DNA from: Chitinophagaceae bacterium
Lineage (GTDB): Bacteria; Bacteroidota; Bacteroidia; Chitinophagales; Chitinophagaceae
NCBI GenBank assembly: GCA_903642275.1
Contig: CAHJWK010000005.1
Span: forward strand, 1-64,000
Length of the DNA stretch: 64,000 nucleotides
Direction: 5' to 3'
Shown here piece by piece: positions 27,017 through 49,032 of this stretch. The notes beneath the pieces are model-generated. The model was given only the letters and a program-made list of their open reading frames with translations, was not told where the DNA came from and searched no databases. The position numbers were made by a program, and so were the translations under genes. Within the stretch, counting starts at the first letter, position 1; each line of letters begins with the position of its first letter.

Positions 27017-27865
27017 ATGATACATATCGTTTTTCAACAAGCAGATATAGATACTTTACAGAAAGCAATTGAGCTTGATAAGTTATTACAAGGCCAAATT
27101 TTTAATATAAAAGATGATTTTGCTGTTGGCCCTGTTAAAGGCATTTATGAAACTGAAAGTTACCAGTCAAGAAGAGATTGGTGGAAAGAATTGTTGCAAC
27201 ATTCACCTTACATAGACCAGCTTGATGTAGTGGATGATAAACTTACAGCGCATCAATTAAAAGAGAGCCTGGATGCAGATTTTAGTGAACAGGTTTGGAT
27301 TTGGGTTGCACCAAACCAACATGATGTTTGCGGTTATTACTGGCTGATAAGTCAACTGAAAGAATATGAAGGCAGAGTGTATATTTTATCATTAAACAAT
27401 TTGCCTTTCATAAATGAAAAAGGAAATATTTTTTATCCTGTCGATTTGCACGAGATACCTGCGAAAGAATTTATCAAAGCAAAAAAATTAGCACGGCCTG
27501 TAACACTAAGCGAGTTTGAATTAGACGGCGATGAATGGAAAAAATTATGTACAGAAAACGGCATTGTAAGAATATTGGAAGGTGGCAAAAAAATTACCAG
27601 TAAAGATGCATCATATTATGACAATGATATTTTAAAAGCTGTATCACAGGAACTGCAAAAGCTGCAAAAGATTTTCAGCACTTTGTTTGGTAAAATGAAG
27701 TTGCATACAGGTGATGTGTTTCTCGTATGGCGAATGAGAGAATTGATTAGTGAAGGTAAGCTCGAAATGCAGGGCGACTGGAATAACGGATGGAAAGATG
27801 TTAGTTTGAAGTTACCTGGTGTTGCAGCAATTGATAACAAACCTGAATCTGATATTACTGTATAA
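27017..27865 (+). CDS. DUF1835 (with DUF3658-like C-terminus) protein
   Basis: The N-terminus MIHIVFQQADIDTLQKAIEL followed by DDFAVGPVKGIYE matches DUF1835, a family of unknown function. A charged C-terminal part (about 170-280; SEFELDGDEWKKL and VFLVWRMRELISEGKLEM) fits the DUF3658 domain usually joined to it. It has no signal peptide or membrane segment. It precedes parC by 108 bases, in the same direction, where parE is often found in relatives. There is no sign that it is a topoisomerase subunit. Confidence 0.75.
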   Translation: MIHIVFQQADIDTLQKAIELDKLLQGQIFNIKDDFAVGPVKGIYETESYQSRRDWWKELLQHSPYIDQLDVVDDKLTAHQLKESLDADFSEQVWIWVAPNQHDVCGYYWLISQLKEYEGRVYILSLNNLPFINEKGNIFYPVDLHEIPAKEFIKAKKLARPVTLSEFELDGDEWKKLCTENGIVRILEGGKKITSKDASYYDNDILKAVSQELQKLQKIFSTLFGKMKLHTGDVFLVWRMRELISEGKLEMQGDWNNGWKDVSLKLPGVAAIDNKPESDITV

Positions 27866-27973
27866 TGAATTACTTAAGAACAAATAAACATGAGCGTTGA
27901 AAATTAATTGTTGAATATTTAGCGTTTAAGACATATTCAATAATCAATACACAACAAACAATATTTATTATAA

Positions 27974-30481
27974 ATGGCAGCAGATTCAAAAAATATTATA
28001 CCGAACGAAACCGGCGTACAAGGTCAATATAAAACATGGTTCCTTGACTATGCATCCTATGTAATTCTTGAACGTGCAGTGCCCGCAATTGAAGATGGAT
28101 TGAAACCAGTACAACGCCGCATTTTACATGCCATGAAAGAAATGGATGATGGTCGTTATAATAAAGTAGCGAACATAATCGGGCAAAGCATGCAGTATCA
28201 TCCGCATGGTGATGCAAGCATTGGTGATGCATTGGTGAACATGGGCCAGAAAGAATTAATGATAGATACGCAGGGCAACTGGGGCGATGTAAGAACAGGT
28301 GATGACGCAGCCGCACCAAGATATATTGAAGCGCGGTTGTCAAAGTTTGCGCTGGAAGTTGCGTTCAATGCAAAGACAACAGAATGGCAATTGAGTTATG
28401 ATGGAAGAAAACAGGAGCCTGTTATACTGCCGATGAAGTTTCCTTTATTATTAGCACAAGGTGCTGATGGCATTGCGGTTGGATTATCAACCAAAATTCT
28501 GCCACATAATTTTATAGAGGTATGTGAAGCAAGCATAAAATATTTACGTGATAAAAAGTTTGAACTGCTCCCTGACTTTATAACTGGTGGAATGATGGAT
28601 TCTACAAACTATACTGAAGGTAAACGCGGCGGCAAAATTAAAGTGCGTGCAGCCATTGAAGAACGTGATAAGAAAACACTCATCATAAAAAATATTCCTT
28701 ACGGCATTACAACTTCCACGTTGATGGATTCAATTGTGAAAGCTAATGAGCAAGGAAAAATTAAGATAAAAAAAGTTACAGATGCAACGGCAAAAAATGT
28801 TGAAATTATAATTGACTTAGCGCCCGGAATTTCACCTGATATAACCATTGATGCTTTATATGCTTTTACAGATTGTGAGTTGAGTATTTCACCTAACGCC
28901 TGTGTTATTGTTGACCAGAAACCAAGATTTTTAGGCGTTCAGGATTTGCTTAAAATATCGGTTGATAAAACAAAAGATTTATTAAAGCGTGAGCTTGAAA
29001 TTAGGCTTGCTGAGCTTGAAGATAAATGGCATTACACTTCACTTGAAAAAATATTTTTTGAAGAAAAGATTTATAAAGAGCTGGAAAAAAAACATGAAAC
29101 ATGGGACAAAGTGATTGAAGCAATTGATAAAGCATTTGCTCCTTTTAAAAAGCAACTGAAACGTGATATTAAAAGAGAAGATATTTTAAAGTTGACTGAA
29201 AAACCGGTGCGCAGAATTTATAAACTTGATATTGATGAACTGAATCAACAAATAAAAAATATTGAAGCAGACATCAAACACTTAAAACATGATTTAAATA
29301 ATCTTGTTGATTTTTCCGTTGGATATTTTGAAAATCTTTTGAACAAATATGGTAAAGGAAGAGAGCGCAGAACAGAAATAAAATTGTTTGATACCATACA
29401 GGCAAAACAGGTTGCCATTGCTAACACGAAAATCTATATCAACCGCAATGAAGGTTTTATTGGAACTGGTTTAAAGAAAGATGAATTTTTATGTGATTGC
29501 TCTGAGTTTGATGATATCATTGCATTCACTAAAGGCGGAATTATGAAAGTGGTAAAGGTTGCAGATAAAAGTTTTGTTGGGAAAGATATTTTACATGCTG
29601 CGGTGTTTCAAAAAAATGACGAGCGCACCACATATAACATGATTTATACGGATGGGCAATCAGGTATTAGTTATGCCAAGCGTTTTAACGTAACCGGTGT
29701 TACCCGCGATAAAGATTATGACTTAACAAAAGGCAGTGATAAAACGAAAGTTCAGTATTTATCTGTTAATGCAAACGGCGAAGCTGAAGTGGTGAAAATT
29801 AATTTAAGCCCAACAAGTTCTGCGCGTATAAAAGAGTTCGATTTTTACTTTGAAACATTAGATATAAAAGGCCGCAGCAGTATGGGCAACCAGGTAACAA
29901 AATATTCTGTGCGTACTATTAAGTTTAAAGAAAAAGGCACAGCAACTTTAGCCGGCAGAAAGCTTTGGTTTGATAATATTTACGGCAGATTAAATGGTGA
30001 TGAAAAAGGCACATTATTAGGCAGCTTTGAAGCAGAAGATAAAATCATCATCATTTATAAAGATGGAAGTTATGAATTAACTGACCTTGAGTTAACGCAG
30101 CGTTTTGATGTAGACAAGCTCTTATCAATGGAAAAATTTAGTCCGGCAAAAATTATAACGGCAATATATGCAGATGTTGATAAGAAGCAATATTTTGTAA
30201 AGCGTTTTAAGATTGAAACAACGAGCCTGCACAATAAATTTTTCTTTATAAAAGAAGATAAAAATATTGTGCTGGAAACAATCACCACAACAGAAGACCC
30301 GGTTCTATATTTTGAAAAAGGAAGAGGAGCACAAGTGCAAAAAATAAAATATAAGATTGGAAAGAACATTGAAATTACCGGCTGGAAATCTGTCGGGACA
30401 AGATTTGAAGATTATAGCAAATCTGTAAAAATGCATTGGGTGGAAACTGAAACTAATAAACAGCAAAGTTTGTTTGAGTAA
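27974..30481 (+). CDS. parC: DNA topoisomerase IV subunit A
   Basis: This is a type IIA topoisomerase A subunit of 835 residues. The catalytic tyrosine is Tyr117 in AAAPRYIEARL. The GAP-like GLKPVQRRILHAM and the helix motif QYHPHGDASIGDALV are intact. The C-terminal region (about 500-815) carries degenerate beta-pinwheel repeats (FTKGGIMKVVKVADKSFVG) rather than the GyrA box, supporting ParC over GyrA. In the quinolone-binding helix Ala81 sits where many ParC proteins have serine, followed by Asp85 at the acidic site. It pairs with ParE, not found in this window, to decatenate chromosomes. It is convergent with the sigma factor gene, 7 bases apart. Confidence 0.93.
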   Translation: MAADSKNIIPNETGVQGQYKTWFLDYASYVILERAVPAIEDGLKPVQRRILHAMKEMDDGRYNKVANIIGQSMQYHPHGDASIGDALVNMGQKELMIDTQGNWGDVRTGDDAAAPRYIEARLSKFALEVAFNAKTTEWQLSYDGRKQEPVILPMKFPLLLAQGADGIAVGLSTKILPHNFIEVCEASIKYLRDKKFELLPDFITGGMMDSTNYTEGKRGGKIKVRAAIEERDKKTLIIKNIPYGITTSTLMDSIVKANEQGKIKIKKVTDATAKNVEIIIDLAPGISPDITIDALYAFTDCELSISPNACVIVDQKPRFLGVQDLLKISVDKTKDLLKRELEIRLAELEDKWHYTSLEKIFFEEKIYKELEKKHETWDKVIEAIDKAFAPFKKQLKRDIKREDILKLTEKPVRRIYKLDIDELNQQIKNIEADIKHLKHDLNNLVDFSVGYFENLLNKYGKGRERRTEIKLFDTIQAKQVAIANTKIYINRNEGFIGTGLKKDEFLCDCSEFDDIIAFTKGGIMKVVKVADKSFVGKDILHAAVFQKNDERTTYNMIYTDGQSGISYAKRFNVTGVTRDKDYDLTKGSDKTKVQYLSVNANGEAEVVKINLSPTSSARIKEFDFYFETLDIKGRSSMGNQVTKYSVRTIKFKEKGTATLAGRKLWFDNIYGRLNGDEKGTLLGSFEAEDKIIIIYKDGSYELTDLELTQRFDVDKLLSMEKFSPAKIITAIYADVDKKQYFVKRFKIETTSLHNKFFFIKEDKNIVLETITTTEDPVLYFEKGRGAQVQKIKYKIGKNIEITGWKSVGTRFEDYSKSVKMHWVETETNKQQSLFE

Positions 30482-35241: not shown

Positions 35242-36447
35242 TTATACCTTGTTACATAAATTAATTATAATTTTTGCTGCATTTGCTGATGCATTGCCGC
35301 CTGTAGAAAGCATACTTTTTAAGTCTTTATAATCCTTTTTAAGTTGCTGTTGCCTTGATTGATTATTCAAAAGTTCTGCTAATTCATTCTTTAGATTTTC
35401 AGCAGTAAGTTCGTATTGTATCAGTTCTTTTACAACAGGTCTGTCCATAATCAAATTAACAAGTGCTATATATTTTATTTTGATGAGCCGCTTTGCAATC
35501 TGATAACTTATGTTGCTGCCTTTGTAACAAACTACTTCAGGCACACCAAACAAAGCTGTTTCTAAAGTTGCTGTTCCGCTTGTAACTAAAGCCGCTTTTG
35601 ATTGCGCCAAAAGCCAATATGTTTTATTACATGCTGATGATACGTTTGTATAATACTGCAATAAGCCGGCATAAAATTCATCTTCTACTGAAGGTGCTTT
35701 TGCAAGCACAAACTGGTATTGCGGAAAAGCTTTGCTTACTTCAAGCATAACAGGCAATTTTTTTGTAATCTCTTGTTTGCGGCTGCCAGGAAGAAGTGCG
35801 ATTAAGTTTGCAGTTTTCGGTTTGTAGTTTTCAGTTAATGGTTGGCAGTCTATTGATGACTGATAATTTTCTAATGATTCACGATTCAGATTTGATGCTT
35901 TGTATTCTTCAATTACCTGTAACAACGGATGACCAACGTAATCAACATCCCAGTTCCATTTGTTTTTATAGTAATCTTTTTCAAACGGAAGAATAACAAT
36001 CATTTTATCAATCCACTTTTTCATTTTTGGCACGCGGCTTTCTTTCCACGCCCAAACTTGCGGAGAGATGTAGAAGACGGTTTTACAGTTGACTGTTAAC
36101 CGTTGACTATTGACTGATTTAGCTTTTAGCTTATATGCCCATTCTGCAATGCGTAAGTTGAAGCCTGGATAATCAATTAAGATTAAAACATCAGGACTAA
36201 AATGAAGTATGTCTTGTTTGCAAAATTTCAGGTTAGATAAAATGATTTTTAGGTTCATTACCACTTCAACAAAACCCATAAATGCCAAGGCTCGGTAGTG
36301 TTTAACCAATGTTGCACCTGTTGCCTGCATAAGATCACCACCCCAGCAACGGATGATTGAATTATTGTCAAGCTTTTGTAATTCTTTAATAAGATTGCTG
36401 CCATGCAAATCGCCGCTTGCTTCGCCTGCAATTATATAATACTTCAT
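35242..36447 (-). CDS. lpxB: Lipid-A-disaccharide synthase with two repeat-derived insertions
   Basis: LpxB joins UDP-diacylglucosamine and lipid X in lipid A synthesis at the inner membrane. Family marks are IIAGEASGDLHGSNLI at the start, MGFVEVV, DYPGFNLRIA, FYISPQVWAWKESRV, VGHPLL and LIALLPGSRKQEI. At 401 residues it is slightly longer than usual. The excess lies at two sites: about residues 104-122, between NLRIAEWA and TVFYISP, and about 184-214, between IEEYK and NLIALLPGS. Both are encoded by degenerate heptanucleotide tandem repeats, and both leave the conserved motifs intact. It is followed on the same strand by msrB. Confidence 0.93.
   Translation of the reverse strand: MKYYIIAGEASGDLHGSNLIKELQKLDNNSIIRCWGGDLMQATGATLVKHYRALAFMGFVEVVMNLKIILSNLKFCKQDILHFSPDVLILIDYPGFNLRIAEWAYKLKAKSVNSQRLTVNCKTVFYISPQVWAWKESRVPKMKKWIDKMIVILPFEKDYYKNKWNWDVDYVGHPLLQVIEEYKASNLNRESLENYQSSIDCQPLTENYKPKTANLIALLPGSRKQEITKKLPVMLEVSKAFPQYQFVLAKAPSVEDEFYAGLLQYYTNVSSACNKTYWLLAQSKAALVTSGTATLETALFGVPEVVCYKGSNISYQIAKRLIKIKYIALVNLIMDRPVVKELIQYELTAENLKNELAELLNNQSRQQQLKKDYKDLKSMLSTGGNASANAAKIIINLCNKV
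35807..35897. repeat. Degenerate 7-bp tandem repeat inside lpxB (13 units)
   Basis: The plus strand reads in register as 7-base units such as TTTGCAG, TTTTCGG, TTTGTAG, TTTTCAG, TTAATGG, TTGGCAG and ATGACTG. The later units are more decayed. The array encodes about residues 184-214 of LpxB, in the linker before the conserved ALLPGSRKQE motif, a region absent from ordinary LpxB proteins. Confidence 0.65.
36082..36137. repeat. Degenerate 7-bp tandem repeat inside lpxB (8 units)
   Basis: Units on the plus strand are TTTACAG, TTGACTG, TTAACCG, TTGACTA, TTGACTG, ATTTAGC, TTTTAGC and TTATATG. The first five are very close. The array encodes about residues 104-122 of LpxB (the SVNSQRLTVN stretch), just ahead of TVFYISPQVWAW. 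Confidence 0.7.
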
Positions 36448-48414: not shown

Positions 48415-49032
48415 AATCGTTTTTTTAATTATTACATATGATTGTTTAGAAAATCCATGTTTGATTTTCGCCGTAAAACGGCTGTTTTTAAGGATAAGAT
48501 GCCTGCCTCAAACCCACAGATGGCTGTTTTCGACAATGAGATGCGATTCTCAAACTAAGAGATGCGATTCTCAAACTAAGAGATGCGATTCTCAAACAAT
48601 GAGATGCGGTTCTCAGGCTGTGAGATGTGATTCTCAAGCTAAGAGATGCGATTCTCAAACAATGAGATCCGATTCTCAAACAATGAGATGCGGTTCTCAG
48701 CCAATGAAATGCGTTTTTCAGCCAGTGAAATGCGATTCTTAGGCTAAGAGATAACTATCGAGTTATCCTGCCTTTCAGTATCAACCCAAAAAATAAAAAA
48801 ACTGTAGTTTGAATAAGGAGAGGATATTGGTGTTAAAGAGAAGCAGTTCTTAAAGCGGTTACTAAATTAAAAAATATTTCATAAACACAAAAACTATATT
48901 TTCTGCAATGCGGAGCTTAAGCTTCTTACCGCCCACTGAACCAGGAGCATAATTTAAGAATGCGTTTACAATTAAAATCAGTATTTAAAATCTCAGGCAT
49001 ATTTATTGGCATTCTTGTGTAAAATAAAATTT
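48415..49032. other. Gene-free gap dominated by a 21-bp tandem repeat
   Basis: These 618 bases contain the 21-bp repeat array (48472-48744) and AT-rich DNA with no supported gene. The plus-strand ORF of 93 codons found here is only a translation of the repeat. Confidence 0.65.
48472..48744. repeat. 21-bp tandem repeat, 13 units in perfect register
   Basis: The consensus unit is AATGAGATGCGATTCTCAAAC. Units 4-13 (48535-48744) are well kept, while the first three (48472-48534) are decayed but still in 21-base register. Most units hold a dyad (T)GAGA-6nt-TCTC(A). One unit (48703-48723) changes both arms together to TGAAA/TTTCA. There are no unique spacers, so it is not a CRISPR. It starts 57 bases upstream of the minus-strand gene. 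Confidence 0.85.

Follow-up and report, generated by a model that had tools for sequence, protein, structure and literature searches.

How a gene of an essential type comes to hold tandem seven-base units, each of which shifts the reading frame unless gained in threes, is the question raised by lpxB in this Chitinophagaceae genome. The gene lies on the reverse strand at positions 35242–36447 of the window (the whole stretch of 64,000 nucleotides that was analysed) and encodes a full-length lipid-A-disaccharide synthase of 401 residues (TIGR00215, E value 2.6e-71; PF02684, E value 2e-83), for which the top Foldseek matches of the structure model are E. coli LpxB (5w8n, 5w8s and 5w8x). A first-pass annotation had described two heptanucleotide arrays within this reading frame, with the conserved motifs on both sides of each intact. 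Both arrays are present, in frame and within a full-length gene, and the conserved residues flanking them are indeed preserved.

Nearer the N terminus is site 1 (36080–36132, reverse strand; residues 106–122), an array of about 7.5 units reading, in gene sense, AAGCTAA, AAGCTAA, ATCAGTC, AATAGTC, AACGGTT, AACAGTC, AACTGTA and part of a further unit. The two AAGCTAA units (36119–36132) belong to the unit type that fills site 1 in two congeneric genomes (G006 and G002), and the remaining 5.5 or so (36080–36118) to an RTCAACN type dispersed through the window genome; site 1 looks like two heptamer families joined. Occupying a length-variable loop is site 2 (35802–35850, reverse strand; residues ~200–215), an array of AACTGAA type. 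Five clear units (AACTGAA, AACTACA, AACCGAA, AACTGCA and AACTTAA; 35802–35836) match AACTGAA at 5–7 of seven letters, ahead of which stand two weak ones, GACTGCC and AACCATT, sharing four and three letters with it, and the eight units preceding this pair agree at only 1–4 of seven letters. The eight units originally assigned to site 1 were thus about right, and the 13 assigned to site 2 were an overcount.

Within lpxB, Tandem Repeats Finder detects 35805–35836 and 36118–36132 only. Periodicity was scored in windows at lags 7, 14 and 21, with control periods, in place of a strict lag-7 segment score that was dropped because it is too harsh on degenerate arrays. The window has eight period-7 peaks with a score of at least 5.2; the lpxB arrays take first and fourth place among them, and the other six are AT-rich. 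Random synonymous recoding that preserves the protein attained the observed period-7 score in 0 of 5,000 trials at site 1 and in 4 of 5,000 at site 2, and the periodic signal therefore resides in the DNA and not in the peptide alone. In the structure model (mean pLDDT 81, pTM 0.80), site 1 is a coil joining helix 94–111 to strand 122–126, and residues 189–211 at site 2 have pLDDT below 50; the repeat-coded stretches most likely serve as flexible linkers of no selective consequence, lying outside the conserved core. Compared with shuffled sequences, site 1 folds well, forming small local hairpins (z −5.7), and site 2 does not (z 0.57). Neither array has a significant inverted partner (21 and 22 matches of 42).

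Among 79 relatives, lpxB was found in 76, and all listed matches are free of internal stops, some of them clipped by contig ends. Site 1 spans 20–27 residues in all seven genus members in which it is readable (six with a full gene, G003 with a partial one; G001 gave no lpxB match). Outside the genus its length is 15 residues in 87 of 90 genes, and the three that depart from this length show no period 7. Had the same residues been common in distant LpxB proteins free of the repeat, the period could have been put down to chance; at site 1 this is not what is seen. At site 2 the loop varies in length across the family, and E. coli LpxB has neither insert in the alignment. The units filling site 1 differ between species: AAGCTCA-type units occur in G006, G002 and G003, AAAAATC in G007 and RTCAACN in G004, and G005 has no clear period; in the window genome, RTCAACN units come after AAGCTAA. 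A genus tree gave weak support at the nodes of interest (0.68–0.79) and was left unused.

The inserts had been judged unusual, a view that does not survive comparison within the family. We compiled 106 lpxB genes, from 30 fetched loci less four for which no translation was obtained (L029, L035, L037 and L038) together with the best 80 of 516 loci, leaving out partial genes at contig ends; deduplication left 96 distinct Chitinophagaceae genes. In these, 43 period-7 peaks fall in 30 genes, with 5 genes carrying them at site 1, 29 at site 2 and none elsewhere, and control periods of 4, 5, 8, 10, 11 and 13 gave 3, 0, 0, 0, 2 and 0 peaks. The gene of G003, an eighth genus genome lying outside the 96 and the one partial gene that was used, shows period 7 at site 1 as well as site 2. 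Loops at site 2 that hold heptamers exceed those lacking them in length (median 31 versus 22 residues, p = 4e-5), and several consist of inverted heptamer arrays folding as hairpins (L077 and L093, for example); folding at z of −2 or lower was found for 7 of 29 heptamer-bearing loops versus 4 of 67 others. Beyond the family the signal is rare. Outgroup genes were taken from 20 of the 30 genomes with an lpxB match that belong to the order but not the family; one of these 20 genes carries period 7, and that gene is AT-rich. In a draw across the class, comprising 29 further loci from 57 matching genomes and including one Chitinophagaceae locus, period 7 appears in one gene, at the extreme C terminus, and period 8 likewise in one. 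Outside the family, the listed lpxB match of this draw contains a stop in 3 of the 57 matching genomes (G098, G117 and G131). In the site 1 loop of another Chitinophagaceae lpxB, at locus L118, lies a different in-frame palindromic insert, GCCTGCCTGCCGGACAGGCAGG, encoding the peptide CLPDRQG.

The lpxB arrays have kin elsewhere in the same genome, which the first-pass annotation had proposed to search for the same heptamers. A search of the window genome for triplets of RTCAACT with up to three mismatches returned 31 matches, and RTCAACN arrays lie inside 14 conserved genes, lpxB counted in, as named with NCBIfam and Pfam. Twelve of the carriers score above curated cut-offs, namely LpxB, MutL (two arrays), TilS (three), TsaD, LysC, Fmt, TrpG, SucB, YggS, PyrD, LeuRS and GuaA; two fall short of them, an E1 of pyruvate-dehydrogenase type with two arrays and a helicase of PcrA/UvrD type clipped by the end of its locus. 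Long reading frames hold 19 of 20 classified clusters, of which 18 have the stop-free orientation and one the opposite, although in one of the 19, at RuvX, the array is upstream of the likely start codon; one further cluster (C191) has no locus and stands outside the 20. Additional clusters are lpxB site 2, in the stop-free orientation, one oriented the opposite way in a TrmN-like gene, and two (L011 and L002) that lie in no reading frame. ArgB also carries a heptamer array, as does an N-acetylornithine-carbamoyltransferase-like gene that scores slightly under its cut-off. Perfect arrays of GTCAACT, AAGCTCA, AAAAGTC or ACTCACC have all frames open in one orientation only. An ACATCGT-like heptamer array also lies in the N-terminal or leader part of a GlnRS reading frame, ahead of the Pfam match (L137, 5867–5908).

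Heptamer arrays are likewise carried by Parafilimonas terrae DSM 28286 (G004), a cultured isolate and one of the nearest named relatives, and are therefore no artefact of binning. Here 8 of 18 classified clusters are within named genes, the rest being close to the start of a frame, within a short frame or outside any frame. The carriers are TrpG, YggS, TilS, MetG, a class-III aminotransferase, a protein of the phosphopantetheinyl transferase superfamily, an M1 peptidase and an ABC protein, the last with its array in the opposite orientation; the TrpG, YggS and TilS arrays occupy identical alignment positions in the two genomes. Recurrence in the same loops was also found for PyrD, where 12 of 30 genes share 21 period-7 peaks and two loops hold 18 of these, and for TsaD, where 9 of 28 genes share 10 peaks, eight at one loop and two upstream of the start; in both, other periods gave 0–1 peaks and the units vary by genome. 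Some PyrD matches list a stop, but the frames analysed have none inside and begin ahead of the start codon. The window genome holds a second, partial PyrD homologue with 84% identity to the query, at the end of contig C10 (positions 3–485). At one place in ArgB, AAAAGTC in the window genome is replaced by AAAGCTC in G003, in phase and with the protein length unchanged. In TsaD of these same two genomes the repeat adds no residues relative to most relatives, and insertion is therefore not the sole route by which such arrays arise.

Across 32 genomes, the RTCAACT type gave, besides the 31 matches in the window genome, 9–42 in seven genus relatives, none in nine genomes and a maximum of 278 in one genome. 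The AAGCTCA type gave 6–24 matches in six genus members, one in the window genome, none in G005 and at most four elsewhere; its reversed-pattern control gave none in the genus except two in G007, and 0–4 elsewhere, similar to the pattern counts there, so that this type stands out in the genus only. For RTCAACT the reversed pattern is useless as a control because the reversed unit is a rotation of itself, and in one search the control exceeded the pattern (34 versus 11) because the reversed pattern was itself of RTCAACN type. In unselected stretches, period-7 peaks scoring at least 7.5 numbered 11 in P. terrae, 15 in G027, 5 each in G015 and G033, and 3 each in G011 and the window genome, with 0–1 at other periods except period 8, which gave four in each of G015 and G011. 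Period-8 arrays are about as frequent as period-7 arrays in stretches L253–L257 of G015 and L263–L267 of G011. Of the arrays found de novo in random stretches, 11 of 13 in P. terrae and 10 of 15 in G027 are outside long frames.

About half of the sampled arrays have an inverted partner nearby. Within 300 bases, one was found for 31 of 58 sampled arrays from six genomes, compared with 9 of 353 random 42-mers, both arms of a pair being counted. By genome, the figures are 12 of 15 in G027, 5 of 7 in G015, 7 of 13 in P. terrae, 2 of 4 in G011, 2 of 8 in G033 and 3 of 11 in the window genome, whose set includes three stretches picked for holding arrays. Reduced to canonical form, 74 arrays yield 48 units, constant in their length of seven and variable in sequence, which is a poor fit to a single sequence-specific spreading element; a search for a motif shared by the 48 found a mild excess of TCA/TGA only (23 of 48 versus 13 expected in shuffles).

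These observations are, in our judgement, probably explained by satellite-like families of heptamers that spread and turn over in Chitinophagaceae chromosomes, the lpxB arrays being two of their members. Spread by copying is suggested because unlinked genes of one genome share unit families, and turnover because the units at one site differ between species. Units would be copied to new sites and re-copied inside arrays through slippage, template switching or conversion with other arrays as donors, a process that would often leave inverted pairs able to form hairpins. Copies would land both between and inside genes, the genic ones surviving in loops that can accommodate additional or changed residues, for the most part oriented so that all three frames are free of stops and with an overall length that leaves the reading frame intact. 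Such arrays would then evolve in concert, swapping unit families while protein length stays, largely neutrally and perhaps still within species today. Counting against such satellites are the missing inverted partners of the window arrays, the small share of site-2 loops that fold markedly better than shuffles, and the difference in coding share between the window genome, where the clusters are mostly coding, and P. terrae. No enzyme that would copy the arrays was found in our searches, Y1 transposases included in the window genome. A bolder version, to us a long shot, is that machinery measuring seven bases and not their sequence writes or rewrites the arrays, often as inverted pairs, throughout the chromosomes of the family; it would be a bacterial counterpart of the telomerase-made interstitial repeats, and the housekeeping loops would record wholesale replacement of units between species.

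The first-pass annotation had raised a possible regulatory role, in which gain or loss of units shifts the lpxB frame and so toggles or tunes lipid A synthesis. Heptanucleotide repeats do act in phase variation in Haemophilus, and the contingency loci of that type resemble the present arrays in having short tandem units whose copy number can alter the frame, as a seven-base unit does. Those in lpxB, however, consist of degenerate units, which should slow slippage, and similar arrays are present in many other, unrelated housekeeping genes; no off-frame lpxB is found among the listed matches of the 76 relatives, each species being represented by one genome, the gene is expected to be essential, and the two sites fall in a connector and in a segment modelled with low confidence. 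We regard such a switch as very improbable. That the loops are instead selected for their peptides, as a useful linker, a binding site or a change in stability, is unlikely but draws on the persistence of the sites in the genus, at LpxB site 1 in every readable member and at the shared TrpG, YggS and TilS positions. Unit and peptide nevertheless vary between species at one site, the DNA is more periodic than the peptide demands, period-7 arrays are found outside genes too, and the site 2 product is modelled below pLDDT 50.

A mobile origin, as REP-like hairpins moved by a Y1 transposase of RAYT type, would suit the hairpin-forming potential of inverted heptamer arms and the Y1_Tnp matches in 23 of 31 genomes tested, yet no palindrome of fixed sequence recurs among the arrays, and Y1_Tnp has no match in four genomes that hold RTCAACT matches: the window genome, G001 (29 matches), G028 (5) and G030 (7). 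A copy might have been missed in the window genome, a 96% complete draft of 213 contigs, or in G001, which is 67% complete; G028 is a single contig of 99% completeness with few arrays. A Y1 transposase was accordingly rejected as the mover in the window genome, and the mobile origin in general is highly doubtful. The palindromic elements of Rickettsia offer another comparison, being repeat DNA with hairpin potential that lies in frame within protein genes. Their element sequence is conserved, whereas the Chitinophagaceae arrays keep only the seven-base period, as the diversity of their units and the unpaired window arrays show. Least credible of all, to the point of being negligible, is a chance periodicity of low-complexity loops or an error of assembly: AT-rich loops under little constraint and a window genome in draft fragments would suit such readings, but control periods are near zero in lpxB, PyrD and TsaD, codon resampling rarely or never reproduces the signal, and arrays also occur in isolate and single-contig genomes.

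Satellite-like heptamers of this kind differ in placement from those already described. The nearest relatives are the TAACTGA direct repeats reported from Beggiatoaceae, Cyanobacteria and five Bacteroidetes (MacGregor 2015, PMC4679880), which share with the present arrays a period of seven, dispersal, an occasional position in reading frames and an orientation that always stops, and which in some Bacteroidetes adjoin other heptamer repeats. The likeness to cyanobacterial heptamers drawn at the outset holds for period and dispersal, the two traits compared. As described there, TAACTGA repeats are mostly intergenic, near-upstream of start codons, and the coding ones mostly fall in short hypothetical proteins or at protein ends, coding insertions being suggested to succeed mainly at the protein periphery (PMC4679880); the Chitinophagaceae arrays, in contrast, have many unit sequences and occupy loops in the interior of conserved housekeeping enzymes, where one loop holds different units across relatives. 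Site 2 contains one TAACTGA, not in tandem, and site 1 none, and of the 20 classified RTCAACN clusters in the window genome all but one lie in long frames, with one just ahead of a start codon. Tandem seven-base units at many places of one genome do place the arrays among heptamer simple-sequence repeats. The GGGAATC and GGGGA(C/T)T heptamers of Xanthomonas and Nostoc also form degenerate dispersed arrays, but are reported as G-quadruplex-capable, preferably intergenic and under-represented in coding DNA (PMC4692102), and a survey of prokaryotic satellites took unit lengths in multiples of three as coding (PMC6749651). In a literature search that covered few subscription journals, we came across no description of heptamers within the interior loops of Chitinophagaceae housekeeping genes. 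Where the bacterial heptamer repeats of the cited papers are, in those accounts, mainly intergenic, here they lie family-wide in the interior of housekeeping enzymes, at recurrent loops. The family thus offers many natural replicates for asking why the unit is seven bases long, how units spread, and how satellites evolve in concert inside a reading frame of fixed length.

Two further repeats were seen in the window. Between the reading frames at 27017–27865 and 27974–30481 are AT-rich period-7 stretches (27886–27974) with partly inverted halves; the intergenic inverted pair (27866–27973) folds no better than shuffled sequences (z −0.84). Within a short Cys- and Ser-rich frame (48461–48742) is a 21-base repeat of about 9.7 copies with 84% matches (48533–48739), its unit being three times seven bases in length.
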